From Gordonia bronchialis DSM 43247 (GTDB lineage: Bacteria; Actinomycetota; Actinomycetes; Mycobacteriales; Mycobacteriaceae): a stretch of 64,000 nt of DNA. Shown piece by piece: positions 25,961 to 43,329 of this stretch. Numbering within the stretch: the stretch's first letter is position 1; every line of letters begins with the position of its first letter. A model generated the notes under the pieces. The model worked only from the letters and a program-made list of their open reading frames with translations, did no database searches and was not told the DNA's origin. Position numbers and translations under genes: made by a program. Location of the stretch: assembly GCF_000024785.1 (NCBI RefSeq), contig NC_013441.1, positions 4,712,001-4,776,000 of the forward strand. Reading direction: 5' to 3'.

Positions 25961-25961
25961 A

Positions 25962-26090: not shown

Positions 26091-26140
26091 ACGTGGCATC
26101 AACGCGTAGATGTTTCAGTTTCTTCTGTGCTGGGGCTGTG

Positions 26141-27232
26141 TCAGGTGCTGGACCGGGTGTAGGCAGCGGCGCGCACCACATCGTCGTCCTCCAGTCCAGC
26201 TCCTATTGCTCCGCCCACGGTGGCCAGGCTGGCGGTGAGCCAGCTGATCTTCGCGTAGTCCAAAGCGTTCACTGGGTGACCGGCGATACCGGCCAGTACC
26301 TGCTCGTCGATGAGCAGCAGCGCGCCGACCCAGGACAGGATGAATAAGCCGAGGTAGAACACCACAACCCCGATGGCCACGGTCGCGGTGGTGGCCAAAT
26401 TGAACAGGATCACCTGCTCACGTTGGGCTCGCCGCCGCGGGCGCTCCCACAAGTCGGCTCCCAGGATCAGGGTGGCACCCACCGCCCCGATCGCCATCAC
26501 CGCCAGCAGGACCAGGCGCACCGGCCCGTAGGCCATGGCCAGTACCCATAGGTCCGAGGCCACCAATGTCAGCATGCCGGTGGCCACTGCCCCGACCAGC
26601 GCCCGGGAGAGCCGGGCCACGAAGGCCCAAGGCTGGTTGGCGCGGATCATGCCCAGCAGCAACCGCACGTTGCCGCTCAGCACTCGGGCCGTGAACTGCA
26701 CGACGTTGTCGTCCGGGCGTTCGTCGAGATCGGTGGACAGCTGGTGGGCTCTTCGAGCAAGATCCCGCTGGGCGTTGGGGTCTTCGGCGTCGTAGCCCAG
26801 GAGCTGCCCGACCACGTGCACGGTGGTCTCTTGCACCTTCTGCCGCACGTGCACGGGTCCCAGGGTTGGGACGGAGACCAGTCCTACCCCGTGCACGGGG
26901 CTGAGCTGGGTGAGCACCGGACGTCGGCCGGTCTTCAGGGGGATCTCGGTGAGCACCACGGCCAAATCCCAGTTCTCCTCCAGCACGCGGTTTCGGGCCG
27001 CCTCCAGCAGGTCCAAGGTCTCGGTGGGTGGATCGACCAGCCGGTCTTCGGCCATCTTCAGTTGCCAGCGCACTCCCGGATACCGCTGCACCAAAATCTT
27101 GCGCACCGAGGTGGTGACCTCGGGGCCGAGCACCGCACTCAGGGATGGTGAGACCACCAGGCCGATGAGCAGCTCGGCATCGGAAGGGGGTTCGGCAGGA
27201 TCGGCGGTGGATCGGCAACGCTTAGCAGTCAC
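26141..27232 (-). CDS. multi-pass membrane protein of the repeat module (copy A)
   Basis: A protein of about 363 residues. The soluble N-terminal half has LLIGLVVSPSLSAVLGPEV and DLAVVLTEIPLKTGRRPVLTQL. The second half has four predicted helices (LVGAVATGMLTLVASDLWVL; LVLLAVMAIGAVGATLIL; NLATTATVAIGVVVFYLGL; and the next, ending LLLI) and a conserved-looking end (GAIGAGLEDDDVVRAAAY). No known family is recognised. GTG 27232 was chosen because a paralogue at 43788-44886 starts with the same VTA sequence; the frame stays open far upstream without support. Three related copies around the stress island suggest it travels with it. Confidence 0.75.
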   Translation of the reverse strand: MTAKRCRSTADPAEPPSDAELLIGLVVSPSLSAVLGPEVTTSVRKILVQRYPGVRWQLKMAEDRLVDPPTETLDLLEAARNRVLEENWDLAVVLTEIPLKTGRRPVLTQLSPVHGVGLVSVPTLGPVHVRQKVQETTVHVVGQLLGYDAEDPNAQRDLARRAHQLSTDLDERPDDNVVQFTARVLSGNVRLLLGMIRANQPWAFVARLSRALVGAVATGMLTLVASDLWVLAMAYGPVRLVLLAVMAIGAVGATLILGADLWERPRRRAQREQVILFNLATTATVAIGVVVFYLGLFILSWVGALLLIDEQVLAGIAGHPVNALDYAKISWLTASLATVGGAIGAGLEDDDVVRAAAYTRSST

Positions 27233-27726
27233 CGCTCCATGGTGAGGCAACCACGGGCCGATTGCCACTGGCTCGATGGAGCCCCAAGGTTTCGTGCAGC
27301 ACCGCGGGCCGGATTCGGTGGTCGCCTCGATCCCGGAAAGAGCGGTGCTGCTCACTGCGAAATCCTCTCCCCGCCGACGCCGCCAGCGCGAAGACATCAC
27401 AGCCAGCGGGCCCGGGACCTGCCGGTGTCGAGGACGGCTTCTCGATGATGCTGCAGTGACGGATCGGTTGAAGTGCTTCGGCGGTGTGGGAGCAGTGATC
27501 AGCGTGGGGCCGGTCGATTCCGTTCGGACAGGTGATGCATCGACTGCCCAGCGGCAGGTGCGGTACTGATGCGGGGGTACCCGGTGCAGGGGTGTCAAGG
27601 CCCAGCTCCGAAGACGGCAAGCCGGGCACGTGAAAGGCGAATTATGGCCCGCCGCAACCCGAGCGGGAAGGCATGTGTGGCACGAGGCGCCGAAGACGGG
27701 CCGGGCGTTTACTGCAGAGATAAAAG

Positions 27727-28391
27727 GTGGGCATCAGCGGTTGCCGGTGGCGTTCGTCCCGCTCAGCGCCGGCATCACGTTGAAGGGTCTGAACCAGCAG
27801 ATCCTGCGGTTCTACGGCCACCCCGCCATCGACCGGGCGTCGACCTCCAAGCTGGGTGCGTTGGCCGTCGACTGTGTCACCAGCTGCGAAACCCGGTTGG
27901 TCGTGCTCGACGACCTGCACTTCGTGGACTTCAAGCATCGCAACGGCATCGAGGTGTCCAACCACCTCAAGGGTCTGGCCAACGAGATGGCGGCGACGTT
28001 CGTCTACGTCGGAGTTCAGCTCGCCGAGAAGCGGTTCTTCGATGAAGGGCAGCTCGGGGAACAGGCCGCCTACGCGCAGACCAGCCGCCGTGCCACCCGC
28101 TGCCCGGTCGCCCCGTTCGCGGTCGATACCGATCCGGGGCTGCGGAGTTGGATCAGCCTGCTCCGCACGTTGGAGGGGCACATCAAGTTGGCCGACGCCC
28201 ACGAGGGGATGCTCGTCGTGCAGGCGAAGGTGTTGCACCGGCGCACCCAGGGCCGGATAGCGTCGCTGACCAACCTCATCGACCGCGTCTGCTACCTGGC
28301 GATCGCCTCCGGCTCCGAGACGATCACCCCGGAGTTGATCGCCGCGACCACCATCGACAATGCCGGCGAATCCGCCGCCCGCACGGCCTGA
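27727..28391 (+). pseudogene. tnsC: TnsC/TniB-like ATPase, 3' fragment
   Basis: This is the continuation of the split ATPase. The coding similarity begins at GHQRLPVAFVPLSAGITLKGL and includes Walker B (TRLVVLDDLHFVDF), sensor 1 (AATFVYVGVQLAE) and the C-terminal lid helices, ending ESAARTA. In intact relatives GHxRLPV directly follows the RRYGP segment that ends the 5' fragment, so the insertion removed little or nothing. The open frame starting at 27630 includes inserted DNA and is not the true start. Confidence 0.82.
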
Positions 28392-29252
28392 CCCACACCT
28401 TCCACCGCGCCCCCGGCGGCGCGGCTGAGGCCGATTCCCGGCGGTTACGACATCGACCGCTGGCCGATCACCGTCCCGATCCGCCCCGGCGAGGCCATCC
28501 CCGGATGGCTGCTGCATTTCGCCTCCCGGTACCAGCTGTCTCCGGCGCAGTTGTTGCGGGAGTTCGGCTTCACTTCCCGGCCCGCCACCGTCGACCGTGT
28601 ACTGGACCAGGTCGCCGAGTGCTCGCGGGAGATCACCTGGTGCCTCGGCCTCGCGCCGCGGGCCTTGTCGCCGGCATTGTGTGGTTGGCCGGCCGAGGCC
28701 TCGCTCGGCCGCTACCTCGCGCACCGCCGCGGGATCCGGCACCACTTCAGCGGGTCCCGGTTTTGTCCACGGTGTCTCGCCGAGCCGGACTGCATCTGGC
28801 AGAGGCAATGGGCGCACCCGTTGCTTCCGATCTGCCTGCGGCACCGACTGCGGTTGCAGACCCGGTGTCCCGGTTGCGGGCAGGTGCCATTCTCCGACAC
28901 CACCTGGCTCGGCAGCCACGGCCCGCCATGGCACTGCCCCCAACGGTGTCCGCGCGAGAGCGCCGATCGGAAGGTGCGTCCGTTCTGCCGGCACGACTTG
29001 CGCGACGCCACCGTAATCGAGGCCAACGACGACCTGTGCACGGCTCAGCGGTATCTGACCGCGCTGGCCGAGGCCACCGACATCGACGATCCCACCTCCC
29101 GATACGACAGGACGGCCGCGACGACCCGATTCGAGGCCTTCTGCGACCTCGCCGCCGACAAAGTCGGCATCGAGGCCTCGTCACCCTCGGCGCCCATCAG
29201 GAGCGTCAGCAAATCCGATGAGCACAGGACAGTCCACCCAGTTCGTGGCTGA
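28392..29252 (+). CDS. tniQ: TniQ-like target-selection protein, start unclear
   Basis: A zinc-finger protein of up to 286 residues, in the same frame as tnsC and separated from it only by the TGA. Recognisable sequence starts at RPIPGGYDIDRWPITVPIRP and includes WLLHFASRYQLSPAQLLREFG, then the TniQ zinc signature FCPRCLAEPDCIWQRQW with LPICLRHRLRLQTRCPGCG. TniQ/TnsD proteins recognise the insertion target and recruit TnsC. No ATG, GTG or TTG lies between the tnsC stop and the homology, so an indel or a non-standard start is likely. The protein is at the short end of the family, so its C-terminus may be truncated. Confidence 0.75.
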   Translation, partial: PTPSTAPPAARLRPIPGGYDIDRWPITVPIRPGEAIPGWLLHFASRYQLSPAQLLREFGFTSRPATVDRVLDQVAECSREITWCLGLAPRALSPALCGWPAEASLGRYLAHRRGIRHHFSGSRFCPRCLAEPDCIWQRQWAHPLLPICLRHRLRLQTRCPGCGQVPFSDTTWLGSHGPPWHCPQRCPRESADRKVRPFCRHDLRDATVIEANDDLCTAQRYLTALAEATDIDDPTSRYDRTAATTRFEAFCDLAADKVGIEASSPSAPIRSVSKSDEHRTVHPVRG

Positions 29253-29405: not shown

Positions 29406-30422
29406 TCAGCTGGCGGGGCGGTCTGTCACTGTGACCGAGATCTGCTGGGTCTCGCCACCGCGGAGCACGGTCAAATCGACTCGATCGCCCGGGTCGAGGG
29501 CACGGAGCGCCGCGATGAAGTCCTCCGCCGACTCGATGTCGTGGCCGTTGACCGCGGTGATGACATCGCCCGGCCGGATACCCGCCGTCGCAGCCGGACC
29601 GAGCGGGACGACCTCGAGGACGACGGCACCGCTGGTGCGGTCGACTGCCAGTTGTTCGGCGATCTGCGGGCTCAGCGTGCCGGGCTGAATGCCGACGTAC
29701 GCATGCCGGGCAGTTCCCGAGGCCAGCAGTTGGTCTGCGACGTCGACGACATTCGCCGCGGGGATGGCGAAGCCCAGAGCCACCGCACCCGCCGACGGGG
29801 GAATGTAGGCCTGGCTCATCCCCACGACCCGCCCTTGTCCGTCGATCAGGGCACCCCCGGAGTTACCCGGCGAGATCGCGGCGTCGGTCTGGATCAGGTC
29901 GACCAGCGGCGCCCCGGTGGAAGCCGACCCGGGGATCTGACGGTGCAATCCTGAGATGATGCCCGAGGTGACCGTGGCCTCGAACCCCAGCGGACTGCCC
30001 ACGACTACGGCGAGCGCGCCGACCTCTGGCAACGCTGTCTCGAACGTCGCCGCAGTCAGATCCGTGCGGTCCGCTTGAAGGACCGCGACGTCGGTCACAC
30101 GATCGACGGCCCGCACGTTCGCGGACACCTGTTGCCCGTCCGCGAAGGCCACACTCACCTGCCGGGCACCCTCGACCACGTGGGCGTTGGTGACGACGGT
30201 GCCGTCGGTCTTGTAGACGATGCCGCTGCCCACACCGGACCCGGTAAGCACGGTGACAACCGAGGCCTCCACCTGCCGGACCAGTGCCGGCAGGTCTACG
30301 GCAGGTCCCGCTGAGGGCGTCGAGGTGGTGGGAGCCGAGGCGCCGCATCCCGCGAGGAGGAGGACCACGATCGCGACCAGCGGCACCCAGATCGAGGAAC
30401 GTACGGTCGACGGTACGCGCAT
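29406..30422 (-). CDS. HtrA/DegP-type (S1C) serine protease lipoprotein with PDZ domain
   Basis: A 338-residue protein with a lipobox signal (VAIVVLLLAGCGAS), so it is anchored outside the membrane. The trypsin-like domain has His in VVTNAHVVEG, Asp in DRVTDVAVLQ and Ser in AISPGNSGGALIDG. A C-terminal PDZ domain follows (VVPLGPAATAGIRPGDVITAVNGHDI). It should degrade or refold damaged envelope proteins. It is divergent from the dnaK operon across an 841-bp spacer and appears to be part of the same protein-quality-control island. Compared with chromosomal mycobacterial PepD/HtrA it lacks a large cytoplasmic region. Confidence 0.9.
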   Translation of the reverse strand: MRVPSTVRSSIWVPLVAIVVLLLAGCGASAPTTSTPSAGPAVDLPALVRQVEASVVTVLTGSGVGSGIVYKTDGTVVTNAHVVEGARQVSVAFADGQQVSANVRAVDRVTDVAVLQADRTDLTAATFETALPEVGALAVVVGSPLGFEATVTSGIISGLHRQIPGSASTGAPLVDLIQTDAAISPGNSGGALIDGQGRVVGMSQAYIPPSAGAVALGFAIPAANVVDVADQLLASGTARHAYVGIQPGTLSPQIAEQLAVDRTSGAVVLEVVPLGPAATAGIRPGDVITAVNGHDIESAEDFIAALRALDPGDRVDLTVLRGGETQQISVTVTDRPAS

Positions 30423-31263
30423 CAGCCACCACCTCCGTGAGGAATCGGTCTCCTACTTGCACCTGCCGCGAGCGGGCCCACCCGATCAACATACCCCCGG
30501 CGGCGCCCGAGACCGGTCACCGAACCGCTTCGATGCACCCAGGCAACCGGCATCGACGAACGGCAGCGCGCATGCTCCACCACTGAGGGCCGAGATGCTT
30601 CGTATCTTGTTGCGCTGCCAACTTTTCATACAATTCTAATCTGGAGCGTCTCCGATTCGGTTGCCGCCCAGTGGAATCCGGTGGGCATGGCTCCAGTGGA
30701 TGGATAAACCGACCGTTCGGAAAATGGATTTCTCCCGCCGGTTCTCTCGGCGCCAGGAACTTGTCGTTCCGCCATCGAGCACCTGCTCCTGTACGTGAGC
30801 ATGAAGGAACGGCTATTGCCAGCGTGTCAGCGACTGTACTGTCATTGCGGAATTCGCTTCCCGCTTTCGACTTGTGCGGGCCTTGCCACTCACCGCGTCG
30901 GCTGCGATGATGACTGCATCGGGAGTTCTACTCGTGGACGCACCGCAGTAGTGGCCGGTACCCGGAGTTGCGTGTACCGGTCGCCTCGAGCGGGTTCCGG
31001 CGGACATCTATGCCCAGGGCAGGTATGGACGCCATTGCGCCTCTATTGTCGACGCCCGATAGGCGAATTTGCGTCGACCCCCGACAAGGGTTAGCGTCAT
31101 TTCAGTGATTGCAAGCCAGGACTGTCGATAGGCGAATTGTGTTGACAGCCCGAAGGCGGATGAAGAACTCGCATTGCGGTTGGGCCGTTCGTGAGCCCAA
31201 CCGGTTGACCGACGGCCGGGCCGTAGGCTCGGCGAAACCCCGCAACATCGACGCCGAGGGGGC
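30423..31263. other. 841-bp divergent spacer upstream of the stress operon
   Basis: No convincing gene was found. The spacer lies between the divergent protease and the dnaK operon and should contain both promoters. Two repeat structures near its right end (31048-31078 and 31122-31148) are listed separately. No CIRCE and no HAIR (CTTGAGT-N7-ACTCAAG) element was seen. Confidence 0.7.
31048..31148. promoter_or_regulatory. paired regulatory repeats upstream of the stress operon
   Basis: CGATAGGCGAATT occurs twice in direct orientation, at 31057-31069 and 31126-31138. Each copy sits inside an inverted repeat: GTCGACGC/GCGTCGAC for the first and CTGTCGA/TTGACAG for the second. The second overlaps a TTGACA that could be a -35 box. 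This looks like a duplicated operator or RNA hairpin 119-216 bp ahead of the first gene. Confidence 0.5.
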
Positions 31264-31266
31264 GTG

Positions 31267-31770
31267 ATGTCAGAGTCCAGTGGCGGAACCTCCGCCGTAA
31301 GTCCACACCCACCTGCTCGCCAGGTGATTGCGACATTCGACACCTATGCCGACGCCGAGAGCGCCGTCGACTACCTCTCCGACCAGCATTTCACGGTAGA
31401 CAAACTGGCCATCGTCGGTCGCGACATCGAGCTGGTCGAGCAGATCGTCGGCCGATTGAACTACGGCTGGGCCGCTCTGCGCGGCGCCGCCGCGGGCGCG
31501 CTGACGGGTGCGCTGTTCGGCTGGATCTTCGGGTTACTCGATTGGGTCCAGCCGCTGCTCACGGGCCTCGCGCTCGCCTTCTACGGGTTAGTATTCGGTG
31601 CCGTTGTGGGCGCCCTGCTCGGCCTGCTCATGTATGCGCTGCAGGGCGGCCGGCGCGACTTCACCTCAATCCAGTCATTACAACCACGTCACTACGAAGT
31701 CCTCGCCGATGTCGAGGTCGCGGACGAAGCCGTCCGCTTGCTCACCGGCCGGACCGATCGAAAGGAATGA
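31267..31770 (+). CDS. general-stress membrane protein (YflT/GSP17M-like domain)
   Basis: A 167-residue protein and the first gene of the stress operon. The N-terminal domain (VIATFDTYADAESAVDYLSDQHFTVDKLAIVGRD) matches the general-stress 17M/YflT-like fold. A glycine/alanine-rich double membrane hairpin follows (LRGAAAGALTGALFGWIFGLL and FGAVVGALLGLLMYALQ), and the C-terminus has a short HYEVLADVEVADEAVRLL segment. Such proteins are induced by stress in Gram-positives but lack a defined activity. A GAGGGGG ribosome site supports ATG 31267 (GTG 31264 is possible). The stop is 3 bp before dnaK, so the two are cotranscribed. Confidence 0.82.
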   Translation: MSESSGGTSAVSPHPPARQVIATFDTYADAESAVDYLSDQHFTVDKLAIVGRDIELVEQIVGRLNYGWAALRGAAAGALTGALFGWIFGLLDWVQPLLTGLALAFYGLVFGAVVGALLGLLMYALQGGRRDFTSIQSLQPRHYEVLADVEVADEAVRLLTGRTDRKE

Positions 31771-31773
31771 GTC

Positions 31774-33657
31774 ATGGCGACTGCTGTGGGTATAGACCTG
31801 GGCACCACCAACTCGGTCATCGCAAGCTGGCAAGGCGGCGAGCCGGTGGTGATCTCCAATGTCGAGGGAGCGCGGACGACGCCGTCGGTGGTGGCGTTCA
31901 CCGAGAGCGGCGAGCGCCTGGTGGGTCAGCTTGCCCGACGGCAGGCGATCCTGAACCCGAAGGGCACGATCTACTCGGCGAAACGCTTCATCGGACGTCA
32001 TTACGACGAGATCTCCGAGGAGGCCAAAGCGGTCAGCTTCGACGTCGTGCCGGGTGACAACGGTGAGGCCCGATTCGACGTGCGGGGAAAGAAGTACGCA
32101 CCGGAGGAGATCAGTGCCCTCGTGCTGCGCAAGCTCGTCGACGACGCGAGCAAGTTCCTCGGTGAGAAGGTCAAGGAAGCGGTCATCACCGTTCCGGCCT
32201 ACTTCAACGACGCGCAGCGCAACGCCACCAAAGACGCCGGCCGGATCGCTGGCCTCGAGGTCCTGCGGATCATCAACGAGCCGACCGCTGCGGCACTGGC
32301 TTACGGCATGGACAAGCAGACCCACGAGACCGTACTGGTCTTCGACCTCGGCGGCGGCACCTTCGATGTGAGTCTGCTCGATGTCGGCGAGGGAGTAGTC
32401 GAGGTTCGTTCGACGGCCGGCGACTCCCACCTCGGCGGCGACGACTTCGACCGACGCCTGGTGGACTACCTTGCCGACGAGTTCCAGCGTGCGGAGAACA
32501 TCGATCTGCGCAAGGATGCGCAGGCATTGCAGCGCCTCTTCGAGGCCGCGGAGAAAGCCAAGGTCGAGTTGTCCTCGGTAACTCAAGCCCAGGTCAACTT
32601 GCCCTTCGTCACCGCAGACGCGAACGGTCCCAAACACCTCACCACCACGATCATGCGATCGAAGTTCGAGGATCTGACGGCAGATCTGGTGGAACGCTGC
32701 CTCGGTCCGGTAAAGCAGGCAATGAGTGACGCCAAGATCACCGCCAACGACATCGACGAGGTGATCCTGGTCGGTGGTTCGACACGCATTCCGGCGGTAC
32801 AGGCACTCGTTCGCCGGCTCACCGGCGGTAAGGACCCCCACATGGGCGTCAACCCGGACGAGGTCGTGGCGCTCGGTGCCGCAGTCCAGGCGGGCGTGCT
32901 CAAAGGTGAGGTCTCCGACGTACTGTTGCTCGACGTCACCCCGCTGTCCCTCGGCGTCGAGACGCAGGGCGGGGTGATGACCAAGATCATCGAGCGCAAT
33001 ACGACGATCCCGGCCCGGCGCAGCGAAGTGTTCTCCACGGCGGAAGACAATCAGTCCGCCGTGGACGTGGTGGTGCTGCAGGGCGAACGCGAGCGGGCCG
33101 CCGACAACCGGGTGCTCGGACGGTTCCGGCTGGAAGACATCCGCCCCGCGCCACGTGGCGAGGCCCAGGTCGAAGTCACTTTCGATATCGACGCTAACGG
33201 CATCCTCAACGTCACCGCCCGCGACAAGGACACCGGCAAGGAGCAGAGCATCACGATCAGTGAGCAGGGCAACCTGGACCAGAGTGAGGTCGAGCGCATG
33301 CTTGCGGAGGCCGAACGGAACCGGGGTGAGGACGAGGAGCTGCGCAAGGCGGTCGACGCACGCAACGCGCTCGATTCGGTTGCCTACCAGGTGGAACGGC
33401 GACTCGCCGAACTCGGTGACAGTGCGCCCCCGCACGACAAGGCGCGTGCCGAGATGCTGATCGCCGACGCCAGGAAGGCTGTGAAAGACGGTGCTTCACC
33501 CGCGGAGATAGAGCCCCTGACCTCGGAGCTGCAGCAGCTGCTCTACGGGCTCGCGCCGGTCCAAGCCGGCGGCGGCGACGGACACCAGGCCGGCGGCGCA
33601 GAGGCTGCGTCGTCGGATGATGACGACGTGATCGACGCCGAGTTCGATCGAAGCTGA
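31774..33657 (+). CDS. dnaK: Hsp70 chaperone DnaK (island copy)
   Basis: A 627-residue Hsp70. The ATPase domain shows [51 protein letters not shown] and [14 protein letters not shown]. The substrate-binding domain has [20 protein letters not shown], and the tail ends [13 protein letters not shown]. It folds and protects proteins with DnaJ and GrpE, both encoded just downstream. Because an actinobacterium normally has a chromosomal dnaK-grpE-dnaJ-hspR operon elsewhere, this is probably a second, acquired copy; that inference rests on its mobile context. An AAAGGA ribosome site precedes the ATG. Confidence 0.95.
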
Positions 33658-33665
33658 GGCACACG

Positions 33666-34190
33666 ATGGAGAGGTCTGCTGATCATTCGACGACCGAGCC
33701 GGCTACCGACGGTACCGACGGGGATCAGACCGAGACGGCGCCTGATCGCACCGACACGGGGGCCGAGTTGGCTCAACTCGAGGACCGCTGGCGCAGGGCC
33801 GTCGCAGATCTGGACAACCTGCGCAAGCGGTATTCCAAGGATCTGGATCGTGAACGCGCCGCGGAGGTGGCGAAGGTTTCCGCGGCGTGGCTGCCGGTAC
33901 TGGACAATTTGGAGCTTGCGCTGGCCCATGCGGGCAGCGATCCTCAGGCCGTCGTCGAGGGTGTGAAGGCGATCCGGGATCAGGCGGTGCAGATACTGTC
34001 ACGGTTCGGCTTCGAGCGCCACGACGAGGTCGGTGTGCCGTTCTCCCCGGAGCTCCACGAAGTGGTCAGTGTGGTGACCCAACCCGACCTTCCCTCCGGA
34101 ACCGTGATCGAGGTCTTGCGCCCGGGCTATGGAGAGGACGGGCGGCAGTTGCGTCCCGCCGCGGTGGTCGTCAGCCGCCCCGAGGGGTGA
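33666..34190 (+). CDS. grpE: nucleotide exchange factor GrpE (island copy)
   Basis: A 174-residue GrpE. An acidic disordered N-terminus (about 35 residues) precedes the coiled-coil (LEDRWRRAVADLDNLRKRYSKDL) and the head domain (VLDNLELALAH; GVKAIRDQAVQILSRFG; VIEVLRPGYGEDGRQLRPAAVVV). It dimerises through the coiled-coil and releases ADP from DnaK. It lies 8 bp after dnaK. Its 3' end is included in a 42-bp tandem duplication that separates it from the dnaJ-like gene. Confidence 0.94.
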   Translation: MERSADHSTTEPATDGTDGDQTETAPDRTDTGAELAQLEDRWRRAVADLDNLRKRYSKDLDRERAAEVAKVSAAWLPVLDNLELALAHAGSDPQAVVEGVKAIRDQAVQILSRFGFERHDEVGVPFSPELHEVVSVVTQPDLPSGTVIEVLRPGYGEDGRQLRPAAVVVSRPEG

Positions 34191-34259
34191 GCACCGATGG
34201 CGCGTGACTACTACGAACGCCCCGAGGGGTGAGCACCGATGGCGCGTGACTACTACGAA
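34176..34259. repeat. 42-bp tandem duplication at the grpE/cbpA junction
   Basis: Two identical 42-bp units (34176-34217 and 34218-34259) each contain the end of grpE, its TGA and the first seven codons of the dnaJ-like gene. The first ATG (34197) therefore opens an 11-codon ORF (MARDYYERPEG) that stops just before the real gene. Confidence 0.93.
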
Positions 34260-35174
34260 GTGCTCGGGGTTTCTCGGGGCGCCGGCACCGACGAAATCCA
34301 GCAGGCCTACCGCAAATTGGCCCGCAAGTATCACCCCGACGTGAACAAGGACCCCACTGCGGAGGACAAGTTCAAGGAGGCCAACGAGGCCTACCAGGTG
34401 TTGTCCGACCCGGACACCCGGAAACGCTACGACCGGTTCGGCGCCGACTTCCGGCGTGTGCCCGAGGACTACGACGAACGGGTCCGGGCAAGCGCCGGTG
34501 GGTACGGCGGCGGGTTCGGCGGCGGCGGGTACGGCGGTGGCGGGGGCAGACGGGTGCACTTCGGTCGCGGTGTCGGTGGCGAGGGCGGCGTCGACTTCGA
34601 GGACCTCTTCGGGCAGATGTTCGGCGGCGGTGGCGGGTACGGGCCGATTCCCGGCGCCGATCAGGAAGCGGAACTGGAACTGACCTTGGAAGAGGCGTAT
34701 CGGGGCGGCAAACGCACTCTCAGACTGGACGGACGGCAGTACGACGTCGACATTCCGGCCGGTGTCCTGGACGGCCAGCGAATCCGGCTGGCCGGGCAAG
34801 GCGGCCGGGGCAACGGCGACGCGCCGCCCGGGGATCTGTACCTCGTGGTGCGGATCAAGCCGCATCCCCGGTTCCGCGTCCAGGGCCGGGACATCTACGT
34901 CGACCTGCCCGTATCGCCCTGGGAGGCGGTCCTCGGGTCCACCGTCGTCGTTCCCACCCCGGGCGGCGAGGCGAAAGTCAAAGTGGTGCCGGGCTCGTCG
35001 ACGGGAAGGAAGCTCCGCCTGCGCGGAGAAGGAATGCCCAATCCGCGCGGCGCCAACGGCAACCTCTACGCCGAAATCAAGGTGATGGTGCCGCCGAAAC
35101 CGACAGCACGTGAACGCGAGCTGTTCGAACAGTTGGCCGCCGAATCGAACTTCGATCCGAGGAAACAGCCATGA
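34239..35174 (+). CDS. cbpA: CbpA-type DnaJ co-chaperone
   Basis: A 311-residue Hsp40 lacking the zinc-finger domain. The J domain ([19 protein letters not shown], with the HPD triad in [10 protein letters not shown]) is followed by a Gly-rich linker ([17 protein letters not shown]) and two C-terminal substrate-binding barrels ([38 protein letters not shown]). The absence of CxxCxGxG repeats and the adjacent CbpM-like gene make it a CbpA-type (class II) J protein. It stimulates DnaK ATP hydrolysis and delivers substrates. The start was set at ATG 34239 because the duplicated upstream ATG is out of use (it meets a stop after 11 codons). It overlaps cbpM by 4 bp. Confidence 0.92.
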
Positions 35175-35500
35175 GCACCCCCACCCCGGGCACCCAGTAC
35201 ATATTGGTTCGCCGTACCGGAATGTCGCTGGATGTCTTCGCCGAACGTACCGGGCTGCACCCCGACCTGACACGAAAGCTTGTGGCTCTCGGCCTGCTCG
35301 ACGCACGCCGCGACCCCGGCGGCGAAATATTGTTCGAACCGTCAGCAGTGGCCCACGCTGCCCGCATCCAACGGTTACGGACGGGCCTGGGCCTGAACTA
35401 CTCGGCAATCGGGCTCGTGCTCGATCTGCTGGATCGAATCGAGAAACTCGAAGCAGCGTCCCACGGAAGGAAGACACCCCCATGGACACCGGCAGTCTGA
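35171..35500 (+). CDS. cbpM: CbpM-like J-domain modulator / MerR-type regulator
   Basis: A 109-residue protein with a MerR-like winged helix ([31 protein letters not shown]) and a C-terminal helix ([19 protein letters not shown]). CbpM binds the J domain of CbpA and blocks its action on DnaK; the related HspR is a DNA-binding repressor of heat-shock operons. Gene order (directly after cbpA, 4-bp overlap) favours CbpM. It could have both roles, and it may bind the repeats upstream of the operon; this is untested. Its last 19 bp overlap the clpB start. Confidence 0.8.
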
Positions 35501-38112
35501 CTGAAAAGTCACGAGAAGCCCTGCAGGAAGCCCAGAACGTCGCGACCAGAATGGGTCACACCGAGGTCGACGGAGAGCACCTGCTGCTCGCGTTGGTCGA
35601 TCAGCAGGAAGGGTTGGTACCGCGACTGCTCGAGCAGGCCGGTGCGAACGTCGATGCCCTGCGATCCGATCTGGAACGTGAACTGTCGCGTAGGCCGAAG
35701 GTCAGCGGCCCCGGTGCGACGCCCGGTCAGGTGATGATCACCCAGCGCCTGGCCAAGCTGCTCGACGCCGCGGAACGGGAGGCGAAGCGACTCAAGGATT
35801 CCTACGTGTCGGTGGAGCATCTCGTGATGGCCCTCTCCGAGGAGGGGTCGACCAGTGCAGCCGGACGGGTTCTCACCAGCCATGGGGTCACACGAGAGAC
35901 CTTCCTCGCCGCCTTGACCACAGTGCGCGGCAACCAGCGCGTCACCTCGGCCACCCCGGAGGGGGCGTACGAGGCGCTCGAGAAGTACGGACGCGACCTC
36001 GTCTCCGAGGGGCGGGCAGGCAAACTCGATCCGGTCATCGGGCGAGATGCCGAGATCCGCAGGGTAACGCAGATCCTGAGCCGGAAGACGAAGAACAATC
36101 CGGTGCTGATCGGCGACCCCGGCGTCGGCAAGACCGCGATCGTCGAGGGACTCGCCCAGCGGATCGTCCGCGGCGACGTGCCCGAGGGCCTGCGCGACAA
36201 GACGATCTTCTCGCTCGACATGGGTTCCCTGGTGGCCGGTGCGAAGTACCGCGGCGAGTTCGAGGAACGGCTACAGGCGGTGCTGTCCGAGGTGAAAGCG
36301 GCCGAGGGGCGCATCCTGTTGTTCGTCGACGAGTTACACACCGTCGTCGGCGCAGGATCGGTCGGCGGCGAGGGATCTCTCGACGCCGGCAACATGCTCA
36401 AACCGATGCTCGCCCGCGGCGAACTGCACATGATCGGTGCCACCACTCTCGACGAGTATCGCAAGCACATCGAATCCGATGCAGCATTGGAGCGTCGATT
36501 CCAGACCGTGCTCGTCGACGAGCCCAGCATCGAGGATGCAATCTCGATTCTGCGCGGACTTCGAGAACGCCTCGAGGTGTTTCACGGCGTGAAGATCCAG
36601 GACGGCGCACTGGTGGCCGCCGTGACCCTCTCGCACCGGTACATCACCGACCGTTTCCTTCCGGACAAGGCGATCGACCTGGTAGATGAAGCGTGCGCCC
36701 GGCTACGAACCGAAATCGATTCGATGCCCGCCGAACTCGACGAGCTCACCCGGAAGGTGACCCGGCTGGAGATCGAAGAGGCCGCGCTGTCCAAGGAAAC
36801 GGACGCGGCCAGCAAGACGCGCCTCGAGGAGTTGCGTAGAGAGCTGGCCGATCTGCGGGCCGAGGCCGACGCCCGGCACGCTCAGTGGGAGGCGGAGCGC
36901 CAAGCGATCCGTCGGGTGCAGGAGCTGCGGGGAGAGCTGGAACGATTGCGACACGAGGCCGAGGAGGCCGAACGCAATTACGACCTCAATCGGGCCGCCG
37001 AGTTGCGGTACGGCGAGATCACCGCGCTGGAGCGCAGGCTCGAGGCGGCGGAGGAGCAATTGGCTACCAGGCAGGGCCGGAATCCGTTGCTGCGCGAGGT
37101 GGTCACCGAAGACGAGATCGCAGAGATCGTGGCCGCATGGACGGGTATCCCGGTCGCTCGACTGCAGGAAGGCGAGCGGGAGAAGCTGTTGAAGCTCGAC
37201 GAGATCCTGCACGAGAGGGTCGTCGGTCAGGACGAGGCGGTGCAACTGGTCGCAGACGCGGTGATCCGGGCGAGGTCCGGCATCCGTGATCCGCGCCGGC
37301 CGATCGGTTCGTTCATCTTCCTGGGACCGACAGGTGTGGGGAAGACCGAGCTCGCAAAGACGCTGGCCAGTGCCCTCTTCGACAGCGAAGACAACATGGT
37401 GCGCCTGGATATGAGCGAGTACCAGGAGCGGCACACGGTGAGTAGGCTCATCGGTGCGCCCCCCGGGTACGTCGGGTATGACGAGGGGGGTCAGCTCACT
37501 GAGGCGGTGCGTCGCAAGCCGTACTCCGTGGTGCTCTTCGACGAGATCGAGAAGGCCCATGCCGACGTCTTCAATACCCTGCTGCAGGTGCTCGATGACG
37601 GCCGGATCACCGATTCTCAAGGCAGGCAGGTCGATTTCCGGAACACGGTGATCATCATGACCTCCAACATCGGATCCCAGCATCTCCTCGAGGGAGTCAC
37701 AGCCGACGGCGAGATCGAGCCGGACGCCCGGGAGCGGGTGCTGGCGGAACTGCGCGGGCACTTCCGTCCCGAGTTCCTCAACCGGGTCGACGACATCGTG
37801 TTGTTCACCCCGCTCACGCTGCCCCAGATCGAGCACATCGTCGAGCTGCAGCTCGCCGATCTTCGGAACAGGTTGTCGGAGAGACAGATACACCTGGATA
37901 TCACGCCGGAAGCACGCCGGCTCATCGCCGAACGCGGTTTCGACCCGGTCTACGGTGCACGACCCCTGCGCAGGTATATCGCCCATGAGGTCGAAACCAG
38001 GATAGGTCGTGCGCTGTTGCGCGGCGAAATCGAACCGGGCGGCACCATCAGTGTCACGGTGGACGGCGGCGAGCTCGCCGTCGCATATACGGGACCCGCC
38101 ATCGCGGCCTGA
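35482..38112 (+). CDS. clpB: ClpB disaggregase (island copy)
   Basis: A protein of about 876 residues with the full ClpB plan. An N-terminal double Clp-N repeat begins [21 protein letters not shown]. The first AAA+ module has Walker [14 protein letters not shown] (about residue 211) and Walker [17 protein letters not shown] long coiled-coil middle domain (about 400-520) precedes the second module with [13 protein letters not shown] (about 614) and [14 protein letters not shown]. ClpB works with DnaK/DnaJ/GrpE to pull proteins out of aggregates. The middle domain argues against ClpC or ClpK identity. The start ATG 35482 begins the Clp-N domain; the much longer open frame upstream overlaps dnaJ and cbpM and is not used. 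Confidence 0.94.
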
Positions 38113-38126
38113 GAAGAGGTGTCGTC

Positions 38127-38579
38127 ATGGGATCCGACAAGGTGAAGTGCCCACACTGCGGCAAGGTCAACAAGGTGCCGGCGGCCGGGGACGGGAGACC
38201 CCGCTGCGGGAACTGCCACGAGCCGCTGCCCTGGATCGCCTCGGCAGGGGACGGCGACTTCGCGGAGGTCGCCGAGAAATCCTCGGTGCCTGTACTCGTT
38301 GACCTCTGGGCGACGTGGTGCGCTCCGTGCCGCATGGTCAGCCCCGCGCTCGAGCAGCTCGCCACAGAACGCGCAGGTCAGATCAAGCTGGTCAAGGTCG
38401 ACGTGGACGCTGCGCCCCAGACGGCCGAACGGTTCACCGTCCGCGCCGTACCGACTCTGCTGGTGATGGACCGAGGTGAGGTACTCGCTCGTCAGGCGGG
38501 CGCAGCTCCGGTACCCCAGCTGCGCACGTGGCTCGATCAGGCGCTCTCGGAAAATGCAGGCAAGGAGGCGAAGCCATGA
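38127..38579 (+). CDS. thioredoxin with N-terminal zinc ribbon (Trx2-like)
   Basis: A 150-residue thioredoxin. The N-terminal 35 residues hold two CxxC pairs (VKCPHCGKVNKVP and PRCGNCHEPLPW), the zinc-binding extension of E. coli TrxC/Trx2. The thioredoxin domain has the active site LWATWCAPCRMVSPALEQLA and the cis-proline segment VRAVPTLLVM. It reduces disulphides and is likely to act under oxidative or heat stress. It lies 14 bp after clpB and overlaps the next gene by 4 bp (ATGA). Confidence 0.92.
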   Translation: MGSDKVKCPHCGKVNKVPAAGDGRPRCGNCHEPLPWIASAGDGDFAEVAEKSSVPVLVDLWATWCAPCRMVSPALEQLATERAGQIKLVKVDVDAAPQTAERFTVRAVPTLLVMDRGEVLARQAGAAPVPQLRTWLDQALSENAGKEAKP

Positions 38580-38842
38580 CCTCGGTCCATGCCGACCCGC
38601 ACGTGACCGCGATCCGGGCCGTGGTGCCCCGCACTCCACAGGGTTGCGAGGAATGTCTTCGCCTCGGCACCCCGTGGGTACATCTGAGGCTGTGCCTGAC
38701 GTGCGGACACGTCGGTTGCTGCGACTCCTCGCCGGGCAAGCACGCGAGCGCACACGCTCACACCATCGGCCATCCGATCGTCCAGTCGATGGAACCCGGT
38801 GAAGATTGGCGCTGGTGTTATGTCGACCAGAACTTCGTCTGA
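38576..38842 (+). CDS. UBP-type zinc finger protein
   Basis: An 88-residue protein made almost entirely of a UBP-type (ZnF-UBP) zinc finger. The ligand pattern is GCEECLRLGTPWVHLRLCLTCGHVGCCD, then KHASAHAHTIGHPIVQSM. In eukaryotes this fold binds ubiquitin C-termini. Bacterial stand-alone versions lack a known partner, and many are encoded beside thioredoxin or redox genes, as here. The ATG overlaps the thioredoxin stop, and the end overlaps the next gene by 23 bp, so expression is tightly coupled. Confidence 0.85.
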   Translation: MTSVHADPHVTAIRAVVPRTPQGCEECLRLGTPWVHLRLCLTCGHVGCCDSSPGKHASAHAHTIGHPIVQSMEPGEDWRWCYVDQNFV

Positions 38843-40547
38843 GGACGCCCCACGCCTCGGCGACGGTCAGCTCGTCGACGACGAGACCCCGGATACAGTC
38901 GGAGCATTCCCGCGGCTGACGGACGACCAGATCACGACGCTCGAGGTCGGTGGCACGCGTCGATCGGTTCACGCCGGCGAGGTGCTGATCCGAGCGGGCG
39001 CGCCCAGCAACGACTTCTTCGTCATCCTCACCGGCAAGGTCGCGGTCATCGACGAGGGCGCCGAGGACGGCGAACGCCGGATACTGCGCGTGCACGGTCC
39101 GGGCCGATTCCTGGGCGAGCTCGGACTGCTGGAAGGCCAGGTGGCGTTCTTCACCGCCGAAGCGATCGAGAACGGCGAGGTCCTCGTCGTCCCGGCCGAG
39201 CGGGTGCGCGAGCTCGTCGCCCACGACCTCGTGCTCAGCGATCTGATCCTGCGCGCCTACCTGATCCGCCGGCACCTGCTGATCGGGCTCGGCGCGGGGT
39301 TCCGGATCATCGGCTCCTGCTATTCCCCGGACACGTTGCGGCTTCGCGAATTCGCCATACGAAACCGGCTGCCCCACAGGTGGATCGATCTGGAGCAAGA
39401 CGAACGGGCGGAGCAGCTGCTGCAAAGCCTGGGTGTCGCCCCAGAGGACACTCCCGTCGTGATCTGGCACGGCGAGAAAGTGCTGCGCAATCCGACGAAC
39501 GCCGAACTCGCCCGCATCGTCGGGCTCCCGGTCCCGGACTCGGTCCCGGACGCAGCCCCGGACGTGTGCGACCTCGTCGTCGTAGGTGCCGGACCGGCGG
39601 GTCTGGCCGCGTCCGTGTACGGCTCATCCGACGGGTTGAACACGGTGACACTGGAGTCGATCGCTGCAGGTGGGCAGGCTAGCACCTCCTCCCGGATCGA
39701 GAACTACCTGGGCTTCCCGGCGGGGATCTCCGGCGCCGAATTGGCCGAGCGCGCCCTAATCCAGGCCGGGAAATTCGGTACCCGCCTTCTCGTGTCGGCG
39801 GAGGTGACCGGTTTGGGATCCGAGGGCGGGCACCATGTGCTCCGGCTGGCGGACGGCGGCGAGATCCGCGCCCGGGCGGTCGTGCTCGCCACCGGGGCGC
39901 GATATCGCAAGTTGGAGGTTCCGGGAATCGAGGCACTGGAGGGGAGAAGCGTGTATTACGCCGCAACCCATCAGGAAGCGCGGCTGTGCGGCACCGACCC
40001 TGTAGCCATCGTCGGCGGCGGAAACTCCGCCGGCCAGGCCACCGTCTTCCTCGCAGACCATGTCTCCCACGTTCACCTCCTCATCCGCGGCCACGACCTC
40101 GGAAAGAGCATGTCCCGATACCTGGTCGACCAGATCGAACGGCATCCGCGGGTGACCGTGCACCGGAACACCGAGATTCGTCAGGTCCACGGCGACAAGC
40201 ACCTCGAAGAGATTGCAATCGAGGACAATCGCACGGGCGACAAGGCCAGGATCCGGGTGCACGCTCTGTTCGTCTTCATCGGGGCGATGCCGCATACCGG
40301 GTGGCTGACCGACGCGATCGCGCTCGACGATCACGGCTTCGTCCTCACCGGCATGGACGCCGTCCCCGTCCGTGAGGACGGCAACCAGAGAATCGACGCC
40401 CCGCCGTCGAGAACACTCGAAACGAGCCGGGCCGGTCTGTTCGCAGCGGGTGACGTCCGCAGCGGCTCGGTGAAACGGGTCGCATCTGCTGTCGGTGAAG
40501 GAGCGATGGCGGTACGCCAAATCCATGAATACTTCGAGAGGAGCTGA
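38820..40547 (+). CDS. cNMP-binding/thioredoxin-reductase-like flavoprotein
   Basis: A fused protein of about 575 residues. An N-terminal cyclic-nucleotide-binding (CRP-like) domain (VHAGEVLIRAGAPSNDFFVIL; GRFLGELGLLEGQ) is followed by a glutaredoxin-like module (FRIIGSCYSPDTLRLREFAIR, RWIDLEQDE). The C-terminal thioredoxin-reductase fold has FAD motif VVVGAGPAGLAASVYGSSDG, NADPH motif VAIVGGGNSAGQATVFLA and FAAGDVRSG. The usual CxxC redox site is absent: the region reads GRSVYYAATHQEARL. It may reduce a different acceptor, possibly through the Grx-like Cys. ATG 38820 lies in the end of the UBP gene. Confidence 0.85.
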   Translation: MSTRTSSEDAPRLGDGQLVDDETPDTVGAFPRLTDDQITTLEVGGTRRSVHAGEVLIRAGAPSNDFFVILTGKVAVIDEGAEDGERRILRVHGPGRFLGELGLLEGQVAFFTAEAIENGEVLVVPAERVRELVAHDLVLSDLILRAYLIRRHLLIGLGAGFRIIGSCYSPDTLRLREFAIRNRLPHRWIDLEQDERAEQLLQSLGVAPEDTPVVIWHGEKVLRNPTNAELARIVGLPVPDSVPDAAPDVCDLVVVGAGPAGLAASVYGSSDGLNTVTLESIAAGGQASTSSRIENYLGFPAGISGAELAERALIQAGKFGTRLLVSAEVTGLGSEGGHHVLRLADGGEIRARAVVLATGARYRKLEVPGIEALEGRSVYYAATHQEARLCGTDPVAIVGGGNSAGQATVFLADHVSHVHLLIRGHDLGKSMSRYLVDQIERHPRVTVHRNTEIRQVHGDKHLEEIAIEDNRTGDKARIRVHALFVFIGAMPHTGWLTDAIALDDHGFVLTGMDAVPVREDGNQRIDAPPSRTLETSRAGLFAAGDVRSGSVKRVASAVGEGAMAVRQIHEYFERS

Positions 40548-40551
40548 CGAC

Positions 40552-41001
40552 ATGCCAGTGATGGGCACTGCAAAATTCCAGCGGTTCTTCCGGGCAGCGG
40601 CCGGACTACAGGTCGACCGGAACGACCTCAAACGCTATACGGATTTCATCGACGACAAGATCTACGACCTGATCCTCATCGGCAAGGCCTCGGCAAAGGC
40701 AAACCTGCGGGACGTGATCGAACCGTGGGACCTGCCGATCACCAAGGGGCTGCAGGAGAGCATCCACCGGTTCGAGAAGCTGGACGAGGAGATCGAACTA
40801 CAACCTCTGCTCGACCAACTGGCGGCCCGGCCATCCTTGGACGTGGCTCTCTCCGAGGAGACCGAGCAACGACTGCCGCTGATCGCCGGAGGCCTGAGCG
40901 TGGCGCTGGCGCATACCTTCGTCACGGTCGAGCCGGACCGCAAGAACCCCGGGACCGCCGAGTGGAACGTCGCCCTCGACATCTTCCATCAACTCCTCTG
41001 A
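40552..41001 (+). CDS. DUF1931 histone-fold protein
   Basis: A 149-residue protein of the DUF1931 family, which has two fused histone-fold-like halves. Recognisable segments are FQRFFRAAAGLQVDRNDLKRY, IYDLILIGKASAKANLRDVI and EPWDLPITKGLQESIHRFEKL. DNA binding is suspected from the fold but not established. It is the last gene of the stress operon, only 4 bp after the flavoprotein, with GAGAGGAG as ribosome site. Its presence here suggests nucleoid or DNA protection as part of the stress response; this is inference from context. Confidence 0.82.
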   Translation: MPVMGTAKFQRFFRAAAGLQVDRNDLKRYTDFIDDKIYDLILIGKASAKANLRDVIEPWDLPITKGLQESIHRFEKLDEEIELQPLLDQLAARPSLDVALSEETEQRLPLIAGGLSVALAHTFVTVEPDRKNPGTAEWNVALDIFHQLL

Positions 41002-41509: not shown

Positions 41510-42056
41510 TCAGAGTGCGTCGGGGTGTTCTGCCAGGCCGCCGGAGTGGATGAGTGACCGCAAGATGTAGTGGTTGAGGTTGCGGAAGCCGAGCGCGATC
41601 CCGCGTAGGTGTTCCAGGCGCCCGTTGATCGCTTCAACGGGCCCGTTGGAGGCGCCGGTGTCGAAGTAGGCCAGGATCTCGGTCCGTCGAGCCCACAGCG
41701 AGCGGCCGAGTTGGGCAAGTTCGGCGAGTTCTTTCGGCACGCCGGTATGGATGCGTTTTGAGCAGCTTGTACATCGCGATCTTCCCGTCTCGCTTGTGCG
41801 GCTGGTCGTAGGCGTCGATCAGGTCCTGATAGACGGCGTAGGTGACCGCGACCGCCAGGTGTTCCTCACGCGCTTCGAGGCCGTTGGTGATGCGGGTCTT
41901 CTGCTTGTCGGTCAACAAGCCGATTCGAGTGAGCAGGGGGCGGCGGATTCCGTAGAGCGGGTCCCCGCTACGGCCGCGGTGTCCGCACGTATCCTGTTGC
42001 ACGCGTTGTGCGACACACGGTGAGTTTGTCGGCGGCCAAGTGCACCACATGAAACG
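41510..42056 (-). pseudogene. ISL3-family transposase remnant (next to module B)
   Basis: Minus-strand frames give the C-terminal part of an ISL3 transposase distinct from the copy at 25.5 kb. Order is DPFHVVHLAADKLTV at the module junction, then after a frame change GDPLYGIRRPLLTRIGLLTD and LEAREEHLAVAVTYAVYQ, then GASNGPVEAINGRLEHLRGI and LGFRNLNHYILRSLIHSGG. At least two frameshifts are present. The N-terminal half is missing at the junction with the 1.5-kb module at 42056/42057. Confidence 0.82.
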
Positions 42057-42058
42057 GA

Positions 42059-42187
42059 TCCCGGATCGACAGGTACAACAGCGCCCGCCCGCACACCCGC
42101 CTCGGCAACGCCCCACCCGCCGAGTACGAGGCAGCGCACTGCGCTGAGCCCACCAAGTCATCGCGACCGGCAATGACACCTGCATAG
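42059..42187 (+). pseudogene. IS3-family transposase OrfB, C-terminal tail (copy B)
   Basis: Identical to the tail in copy A (IDRYNSARPHTRLGNAPPAE onward). Only the last 40 or so codons are present. Confidence 0.85.
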
Positions 42188-42237
42188 ACGTGGCATCAAC
42201 GCGTAGATGTTTCAGTTTCTTCTGTGCTGGGGCTGTG

Positions 42238-43329
42238 TCAGGTGCTGGACCGGGTGTAGGCAGCGGCGCGCACCACATCGTCGTCCTCCAGTCCAGCTCC
42301 TATTGCTCCGCCCACGGTGGCCAGGCTGGCGGTGAGCCAGCTGATCTTCGCGTAGTCCAAAGCGTTCACTGGGTGACCGGCGATACCGGCCAGTACCTGC
42401 TCGTCGATGAGCAGCAGCGCGCCGACCCAGGACAGGATGAATAAGCCGAGGTAGAACACCACAACCCCGATGGCCACGGTCGCGGTGGTGGCCAAATTGA
42501 ACAGGATCACCTGCTCACGTTGGGCTCGCCGCCGCGGGCGCTCCCACAAGTCGGCTCCCAGGATCAGGGTGGCACCCACCGCCCCGATCGCCATCACCGC
42601 CAGCAGGACCAGGCGCACCGGCCCGTAGGCCATGGCCAGTACCCATAGGTCCGAGGCCACCAATGTCAGCATGCCGGTGGCCACTGCCCCGACCAGCGCC
42701 CGGGAGAGCCGGGCCACGAAGGCCCAAGGCTGGTTGGCGCGGATCATGCCCAGCAGCAACCGCACGTTGCCGCTCAGCACTCGGGCCGTGAACTGCACGA
42801 CGTTGTCGTCCGGGCGTTCGTCGAGATCGGTGGACAGCTGGTGGGCTCTTCGAGCAAGATCCCGCTGGGCGTTGGGGTCTTCGGCGTCGTAGCCCAGGAG
42901 CTGCCCGACCACGTGCACGGTGGTCTCTTGCACCTTCTGCCGCACGTGCACGGGTCCCAGGGTTGGGACGGAGACCAGTCCTACCCCGTGCACGGGGCTG
43001 AGCTGGGTGAGCACCGGACGTCGGCCGGTCTTCAGGGGGATCTCGGTGAGCACCACGGCCAAATCCCAGTTCTCCTCCAGCACGCGGTTTCGGGCCGCCT
43101 CCAGCAGGTCCAAGGTCTCGGTGGGTGGATCGACCAGCCGGTCTTCGGCCATCTTCAGTTGCCAGCGCACTCCCGGATACCGCTGCACCAAAATCTTGCG
43201 CACCGAGGTGGTGACCTCGGGGCCGAGCACCGCACTCAGGGATGGTGAGACCACCAGGCCGATGAGCAGCTCGGCATCGGAAGGGGGTTCGGCAGGATCG
43301 GCGGTGGATCGGCAACGCTCAGCAGTCAC
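42238..43329 (-). CDS. multi-pass membrane protein of the repeat module (copy B)
   Basis: This is the second copy of the 363-residue membrane protein, with the same frame and stop as copy A and an almost identical protein (VTAERCRSTAD against VTAKRCRSTAD at the start). GTG 43329 was taken as start. A diverged third homologue lies directly downstream of the module end at 43788-44886, so this may be an old tandem pair, one member of which was copied to the other side of the island together with flanking IS sequence. Function is unknown. Confidence 0.75.
   Translation of the reverse strand: MTAERCRSTADPAEPPSDAELLIGLVVSPSLSAVLGPEVTTSVRKILVQRYPGVRWQLKMAEDRLVDPPTETLDLLEAARNRVLEENWDLAVVLTEIPLKTGRRPVLTQLSPVHGVGLVSVPTLGPVHVRQKVQETTVHVVGQLLGYDAEDPNAQRDLARRAHQLSTDLDERPDDNVVQFTARVLSGNVRLLLGMIRANQPWAFVARLSRALVGAVATGMLTLVASDLWVLAMAYGPVRLVLLAVMAIGAVGATLILGADLWERPRRRAQREQVILFNLATTATVAIGVVVFYLGLFILSWVGALLLIDEQVLAGIAGHPVNALDYAKISWLTASLATVGGAIGAGLEDDDVVRAAAYTRSST

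Follow-up and report, generated by a model that had tools for sequence, protein, structure and literature searches.

The stretch analysed here (the window) comprises 64,000 nucleotides of the Gordonia bronchialis DSM 43247 genome, positions 4712001-4776000 of a 5.21-Mb contig; the genome consists of two contigs. Positions 29406-41001 of the window hold a block of eleven genes, all with open reading frames, which encode chaperones, a disaggregase, putative redox proteins, and a protease. A Tn7-like transposon of 23.0 kb (22214-45233) encloses the block, with its edges 7.2 kb to the left and 4.2 kb to the right. We consider it probable that this transposon, inserted in the chromosome, carries an accessory protein-repair operon as its cargo, a transferable tolerance package for protein-damaging stress such as heat, solvents, and oxidants.

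Gene content of the block

Ten of the genes (31267-41001) are co-directional, in the order yflT-dnaK-grpE-cbpA-cbpM-clpB-trx-UBP-flavoprotein-DUF1931, and the HtrA gene is opposed and faces away from them. Starts and stops overlap at four junctions of the operon: cbpA-cbpM, cbpM-clpB, trx-UBP, and UBP-flavoprotein. The original prediction had described eleven genes, ten of them in one tight operon with these overlaps, and is confirmed in both respects. The genes and a candidate operator are located as follows.

29406..30422, minus strand: HtrA-like serine protease lipoprotein with PDZ domain
31178..31202, no strand: dyad GGTTGGGC-N9-GCCCAACC upstream of yflT, candidate operator
31267..31770, plus strand: YflT-domain stress protein
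31774..33657, plus strand: DnaK, second copy in the genome
33666..34190, plus strand: GrpE
34239..35174, plus strand: CbpA-type J-domain protein
35171..35500, plus strand: CbpM-like MerR-family protein, between CbpM and HspR
35482..38112, plus strand: ClpB disaggregase
38127..38579, plus strand: zinc-ribbon thioredoxin (WCAPC)
38576..38842, plus strand: UBP-type zinc finger protein (zf-UBP)
38820..40547, plus strand: flavoprotein with a cyclic-nucleotide (cNMP)-binding domain and a part like thioredoxin reductase (TrxR), without the TrxR CxxC
40561 (or 40552)..41001, plus strand: DUF1931 protein

The HtrA-like protein carries the lipobox LAGC and the motifs NAHVV, TDVAVL, and GNSGG. ClpB contains two Walker A boxes, CbpA an HPD motif, and the thioredoxin a WCAPC motif; we take these motifs to have the meanings usually assigned to them. 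The island DnaK passes its curated model. The disaggregase passes the curated ClpB model (1334.9, cut-off 1232.1) and is neither ClpG nor ClpK, for which it scores 805 and 804 (cut-off 1900). The thioredoxin scores above the cut-off of the general model for its family; against the nearest specific model, TrxC, it stays below the cut-off. Its earlier description as a zinc-ribbon thioredoxin holds for the thioredoxin with WCAPC; the ribbon reaches 23.3 bits and falls short of the Pfam cut-off of 27.1, yet two additional CxxC pairs are present. The MerR-like protein is weak to both curated models (CbpM, 33.3 bits, cut-off 138; HspR, 31.7 bits, cut-off 105). It passes Pfam MerR_2, and its best solved chains are CbpM and DafA, the latter a weak match of 20 bits. 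Among solved structures, the zinc finger is similar to the hypothetical protein 2ida and has a weak similarity to the fingers of ubiquitin proteases. For an anti-phage role, PADLOC gave only weak matches, to the protease and the cNMP domain. A perfect 42-bp tandem duplication (34176-34259) spans the grpE-cbpA junction and creates a short false cbpA start, whereas the gap between these genes is 6 bases in the plasmid copy of Nocardia farcinica described below.

A complete core operon, dnaK-grpE-dnaJ-hspR, lies elsewhere on the contig, with its DnaK encoded at 4573597-4575321. All four of its proteins pass curated models, and the core ClpB is encoded apart from it. The proposed test for another chromosomal dnaK operon thus separates the block from the ordinary core locus.

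The enclosing transposon and its other copies

The transposon is delimited by matched ends and a target duplication, and it contains a transposase gene set with two ISL3-type insertions.

22209..22213, no strand: target duplication GGCCG, left copy
22214..22310, plus strand: left transposon end, TGTAGGTTCTCGCGATCGGTGTCA and further GTGTCAG-type repeats; start shared with the Nocardia and VT6 copies
22318..23025, plus strand: tnsA, intact; 100% amino acid identity to the R. qingshengii VT6 copy
23038..25081, plus strand: tnsB-like transposase gene in five reading-frame pieces; 95-100% amino acid identity to the intact VT6 protein
25081..25497, plus strand: tniB (TnsC-like ATPase), first part
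25485..27724, no strand: 2.24-kb insertion with ISL3-type transposase DNA and 6-bp duplication AGGTGG, splitting tniB
27726..28388, plus strand: tniB, second part (Pfam TniB match 27747-28391)
28392..29177, plus strand: tniQ, one open frame over residues 12-273 of 287, with shifted termini
41634..43575, minus strand: ISL3 transposase fragment and second ISL3-type repeat copy
45133..45233, minus strand: right transposon end, reverse complement TGTAGGTTCCGCGGATCGGTGTCA
45234..45238, no strand: target duplication GGCCG, right copy

Of the 24 bases that begin at 22214, 20 agree with the reverse complement of the sequence ending at 45233, and no further place starting with TGT on the right-end strand of the window matches the left end to this degree. 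GGCCG stands directly outside both ends as a 5-bp target duplication. Homology to NZ_CP086600, a plasmid of N. farcinica SZ 1509, and to R. qingshengii VT6 plasmid pLP1 begins at 22213/22214. The left end carries additional GTGTCAG-type repeats spaced 19-22 bases apart; spaced end repeats are expected for TnsB sites.

The gene order tnsA, tnsB, tniB, tniQ is intact in VT6, where it adjoins HtrA, and in plasmid pDK4 of Rhodococcus sp. DK176; in the window, tnsB and tniB are broken. The VT6 TnsA scores 190 bits against NF033179 (TnsA_like_Actin, cut-off 110). The Pfam TnsA-like match, at 25.1 bits, lies below the cut-off of 26.5, and the VT6 copies of TniB and TniQ pass their Pfam models. The block had been predicted to lie between direct repeats and transposon remnants. 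Direct repeats exist (ISL3-type copies 25960-27477 and 42057-43575, 99.5% identical over 1519 columns), and transposase genes are present; the repeats, however, are insertions inside the element rather than its boundaries.

Because tnsB and tniB are broken, the window copy can probably no longer move by itself. In the N. farcinica element, the left ISL3-type insertion occupies the identical tniB position, and the right one is absent. Although its tniB insertion is the same, the N. farcinica copy occupies a different site and has a separate target duplication. Most simply, one copy or both moved after the break, helped by the proteins of a relative. Alternatively, the common insertion may be due to independent insertion or to exchange between copies.

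Perfect 5-bp duplications flank four copies of the transposon: GGCCG in the window, TACAG in N. farcinica, GTTCG in pDK4, and CCTCT in pYLL1 of Rhodococcus sp. YL-1. The N. farcinica plasmid copy has the same ends as the window. Plasmids pDK4 and pYLL1 carry the same cargo with a divergent transposase set; the pDK4 ends are related, and its TnsA, TnsB, TniB, and TniQ share 30-55% amino acid identity with the window pieces. In VT6, the left end was found and the right end was not. Near the right end of the window copy, 43788-44618 holds an unassigned 276-residue reading frame that has a 365-residue homologue next to the island in pDK4 and pYLL1; in these plasmids, similar DNA occurs on both sides of the island. 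A transposase set 76% identical to that of the window is found on Gordonia pseudamarae plasmid p1 (NZ_CP045807), next to metal-resistance genes (ArsR, P-type ATPases, alkylmercury lyase, and multicopper oxidase).

Among the 58 other genomes of the genus, G006 matches the left flank best (core dnaK 92.4% identical in nucleotides) and has a single DnaK at E <= 1e-100. Its left-flank gene is followed by a right-flank-like gene and then by DNA like that at 48.9-50.5 kb of the window, and no transposon separates them. The mobility proposed for the block is supported by the transposon ends, the 5-bp duplications of four copies, the Tn7-like genes, the plasmid copies, the adjacency of the flanks in this relative, and the sporadic distribution described below. 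We conclude from these structures that the block is mobile in the window copy and in at least three others.

Outside the transposon, two host genes 85% alike lie one on each side (20496-20831 and 45670-45996), and a single place in G006 matches both. Repeats of 68 bp, in two and a half copies (18667-18835), run from the end of an acyl-CoA dehydrogenase gene. Just beyond the right end, 46707-48734 is a TerD-domain frame of 675 residues with a coding score low for its length, and 50096-52333 encodes a protein combining a kinase domain with RCC1 repeats.

Distribution and descent of the operon

Six of 59 genomes of the genus and 37 of the 397 from the order, spread over 24 of 85 genera, encode island-type CbpM (E <= 1e-15), host included; the other operon genes were looked for only in individually examined loci. 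The search of relatives' genomes and plasmids suggested with the original prediction therefore found a sporadic block, with 53 of the 59 genus genomes lacking island-type cbpM. Among 296 genomes of the phylum, 72 CbpM matches were obtained at 1e-6, five above 78 bits and 67 below 46 bits; the latter are probably HspR.

The plasmid database contains 39 records that match 31267-41001 (Rhodococcus 21, Azospirillum 7, Sinorhizobium 4, Nocardia 2, Gordonia 1, and four other organisms with 1 each). Many matches are short, including some from Rhodococcus, and 14 of the 39 records hold at least 80% of the operon in one place. The copies of Rhodococcus, Nocardia, and Gordonia are 92-98% identical, and the Rhodococcus plasmids VT6, NJ-530, and AP026692 cover 85% of the operon. 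Traces of tns/tni genes occur in seven of ten fetched plasmid loci, in two of them over only 46-59 residues.

A scan of a species-genome collection with an alignment of the flavoprotein, which leaves chaperone sets without flavoprotein outside its reach, identified DnaK, GrpE, CbpA, and ClpB in 17 of the best 80 loci. All 17 are titled actinobacterial (Mycolicibacterium, Streptomyces, Amycolatopsis, Nocardioides, Arthrobacter, and others). One of the remaining loci contains all but ClpB up to the contig end, another a distant ClpB alone, and 61 none of the four proteins in the stretch. The best-80 loci outside Actinomycetota have the flavoprotein, some with the zinc finger, without this chaperone set. 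The order dnaK-grpE-cbpA-cbpM-clpB is found in 17 of 20 fetched divergent loci, and the other three end at contig or fetch edges. Twelve of 33 divergent loci, but none of 11 near-identical ones, have a close (>50%) Hsp20 gene immediately upstream of yflT or dnaK, with fetch edges limiting the view in some. In Rhodococcus sp. DK17 plasmid pDK2, two general stress protein genes precede dnaK (9938-12019), and Hsp20 genes lie a few kilobases downstream of the operon. Transposase matches are absent from the 12 tested of the 17 complete loci and from 19 of 20 divergent loci, the exception being a weak tniB-like match (26%) in L077.

In the DnaK tree, a 100/100 branch divides the islands from the cores; island DnaKs share 58-61% identity with the host core DnaK. 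The island DnaK of the window clusters with the plasmid copies of N. farcinica and DK176 (80/76). Next come G394, from another genus, and G021, from the host genus (94/84), and the host-genus genomes G009 and G016 stand apart. Relative to core dnaK, for which identity was taken from a fragment of about 1.5 kb, island dnaK is more similar in nucleotides to the window copy in three genomes of other genera: 95.9 against 87.5% in G394, 90.9 against 85.5% in G267, and 90.7 against 86.6% in G062. It is slightly above core in G009 (92.9 against 91.4%) and G016 (92.9 against 90.6%).

Several observations weigh against the interpretation of the block as a transposable tolerance package. Three of the ten fetched plasmid loci lack a tns/tni match, as do the surroundings of the near-identical islands in G009, G021, G394, G267, G062, G448, and G439, where some fetched stretches were short. 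Within the genus, the 99% transposase set is confined to the host genome, with a 66-68% match in four of the 58 others. Island dnaK is less similar than core dnaK in G021 (89.6 against 92.3%), G129, G136, and G124. The G006 flank is only about 79% alike, so that the exact junction base is unreadable, and it has no matches to 18.7-20.3 kb and 46-48.8 kb of the window. The flavoprotein contains no CxxC, its 14 aligned relatives lack that of thioredoxin reductases, and the family reads YYAAT at that place; it is therefore no ordinary thioredoxin reductase. Furthermore, the redox module is dispensable, as alignment to the plasmids of VT6 and NJ-530 leaves out about 1.5 kb of it (38353 to 39817); because of this gap, disaggregation seems to be the core function of the operon.

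The loci without nearby transposase genes, namely the divergent ones (apart from the weak match in L077), the named complete ones, and the seven near-identical ones, would suit an ordinary paralogous chromosomal chaperone operon with transposon debris nearby by chance. We regard this explanation as highly improbable, since a single element with matched ends and a target duplication encloses the block, the same cargo occurs at three other sites, and 53 of 59 genus genomes lack island-type cbpM; independent insertions, each with its own duplication, contradict it for this copy. Just as little credence is given to a composite transposon formed by the two ISL3-type copies, which do bracket the island as direct repeats. 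The N. farcinica copy has the same Tn7-like ends without the right ISL3 copy, and the left ISL3-type copy is flanked by a separate 6-bp duplication inside tniB. VT6 combines the left Tn7-like end with an uninterrupted tniB, but its right end was not found. The prediction of a mobile island consequently holds for the window copy and fails as the sole setting of the genes: because copies without nearby transposase genes exist in other genomes, the gene set cannot be regarded solely as a mobile island. This distribution indicates that the operon core is older and wider than the transposons, a conserved but sporadic accessory set of actinobacteria. Most likely, Tn7-like transposons captured an accessory operon that combines a DnaK-ClpB disaggregase with a redox module.

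Predicted function and comparison with known systems

DnaK, GrpE, CbpA, and ClpB together make a complete Hsp70-Hsp100 disaggregation set, with which the operon would provide the cell with a second machine of this kind, sufficient in itself. Gene content suggests the biochemical partners, the regulation, and the phenotype, including protection from stress. CbpA and DnaK would coat aggregates, GrpE would recycle DnaK, and ClpB would thread proteins out of the aggregates. The thioredoxin, together with the products of the neighbouring zinc finger and flavoprotein genes, would have oxidised proteins as its targets, and HtrA would act outside the membrane. The CbpM-like protein is expected to restrain CbpA and perhaps to repress the promoter; it may do either or both. 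Tolerance to protein damage may in this manner be passed among Rhodococcus, Nocardia, and Gordonia as one package.

The regulatory sequences offer few clues. Upstream of yflT, no consensus of the HspR-associated inverted repeat (HAIR), the CIRCE element, or SigH-like or SigB-like promoters was found in the transposon-type copies; outside them, there is one HAIR-like match with wrong spacing (G394) and one SigH-like match (L064). The dyad about 90 bases upstream of yflT is present in the window and in Nocardia, and both its arms are altered in G394 and G062. By the same criterion, it was not found in DK176, DK17, P23, G021, and 16 divergent loci, and L078 has a different dyad. Because it was not found in most loci tested, the dyad is only a lead to a possible operator.

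The CbpM-like gene occupies the position of hspR in the core operon and its product scores against HspR, which would agree with a canonical member of the HspR/HAIR regulon that merely raises the core heat-shock dosage. This explanation is unlikely, as the 2 kb in front of dnaK contain no HAIR-like site, at a tolerance of 3 mismatches in 14 positions, in any of 40 island loci (a set that includes three contigs twice), compared with three such sites upstream of the host core dnaK. A purpose mainly in the solvent or hydrocarbon stress of degraders, and not in heat, is conceivable, although we are inclined to doubt it. The sources of several plasmid hosts are crude oil, oil-contaminated soil, or industrial wastewater. 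Others originate from forest soil, compost, and sea ice, one is a human isolate, and Rhodococcus has been sampled mostly as a degrader. A study of R. opacus R7 (PMC7434839) reports that growth on o-xylene raises a region with a DnaK, CbpA, GrpE, and thioredoxin cluster by log2 2.3-3.7, plus a ClpB, while a GroEL falls. The composition of the R7 region fits the operon, a likeness by gene names only, and no R7 record is among the plasmid-database matches to the operon.

Returning to the transposon-borne repair operon, we speculate on a more specific version, to which we assign a rather low probability: a self-regulating transposable Hsp70-Hsp100 system. The CbpM-like protein would be a brake on CbpA-DnaK and a repressor at the yflT dyad, the UBP finger and the CxxC-less cNMP flavoprotein would form a nucleotide-gated redox step for oxidised clients, and copies with broken tniB would be moved by relatives' proteins in the same cell. 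No description of chaperone-redox coupling by such a finger and flavoprotein was found in the open-licence literature, and the operon provides a conserved setting in which to study the two. As a naturally occurring second Hsp70 set, it would also allow one to ask why cells take up a duplicate of a core chaperone.

The vehicle is of a known kind, and no description of the cargo operon or element was found among the matches listed for open-licence literature on actinobacterial chaperones, heat-resistance loci, and Tn7-like cargo, as far as these texts were available. Tn7-like transposons with TnsA of Actinobacteria, such as Tn7706 of Rhodococcus (PMC12915292, available in part), share tnsA, tnsB, tniB, tniQ, inverted ends, and plasmid spread with the element described here, which differs in its chaperone cargo. 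A term search of the main text of PMC12915292 and of the Benler survey (PMC8649781) returned no DnaK, ClpB, chaperone, or heat shock.

The cargo shares the order dnaK-grpE-J-protein-MerR-like with the core actinobacterial dnaK-grpE-dnaJ-hspR operon, exemplified by that of the host. Unlike the core operon, it has CbpA for DnaJ, a CbpM-like protein for HspR, clpB inside the operon, and no HAIR sites. The Thermus operon has the order dnaK-grpE-dnaJ-dafA-clpB. The island has the same order, with a small protein between the J-protein and ClpB that weakly matches DafA. The Thermus operon, however, is the core one, whereas the island operon is accessory, mobile, and accompanied by redox genes. No paper on DafA with a dnaK/clpB operon was found in the open-licence literature.

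A further close counterpart is the proteobacterial transmissible locus of stress tolerance (tLST), also called the transmissible locus for protein quality control (TLPQC) or locus of heat resistance, likewise a mobile quality-control island with a disaggregase, a thioredoxin, and DegP/HtrA, on a chromosome or plasmid. In the portions available, PMC8290217 and PMC8407380 state that it may be flanked by IS5, IS3, and Tn7 elements, and PMC8290217 defines its core as dna-hsp20-clpG. This review names Proteobacteria and Deinococcus, and a term search of the available text finds no Actinobacteria. The island encodes ClpB with its own DnaK-GrpE-CbpA and no ClpG; one actinobacterial Hsp20 query has no match in the window, unlike the tLST core. 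YfdX, HdeD, and KefB of tLST, for which no dedicated search was made, are not among the identified genes. Identity with tLST was rejected for the lack of ClpG and of an Hsp20 match in the window, and the predicted likeness to the proteobacterial loci with a different gene set stands. Should the operon be protective, a single step is enough for environmental and opportunistic actinobacteria to acquire stress tolerance. Mobile heat- and chlorine-tolerance islands have been described from Proteobacteria; here, a whole DnaK-ClpB operon is carried on Tn7-like transposons of two transposase lineages in Actinomycetota.

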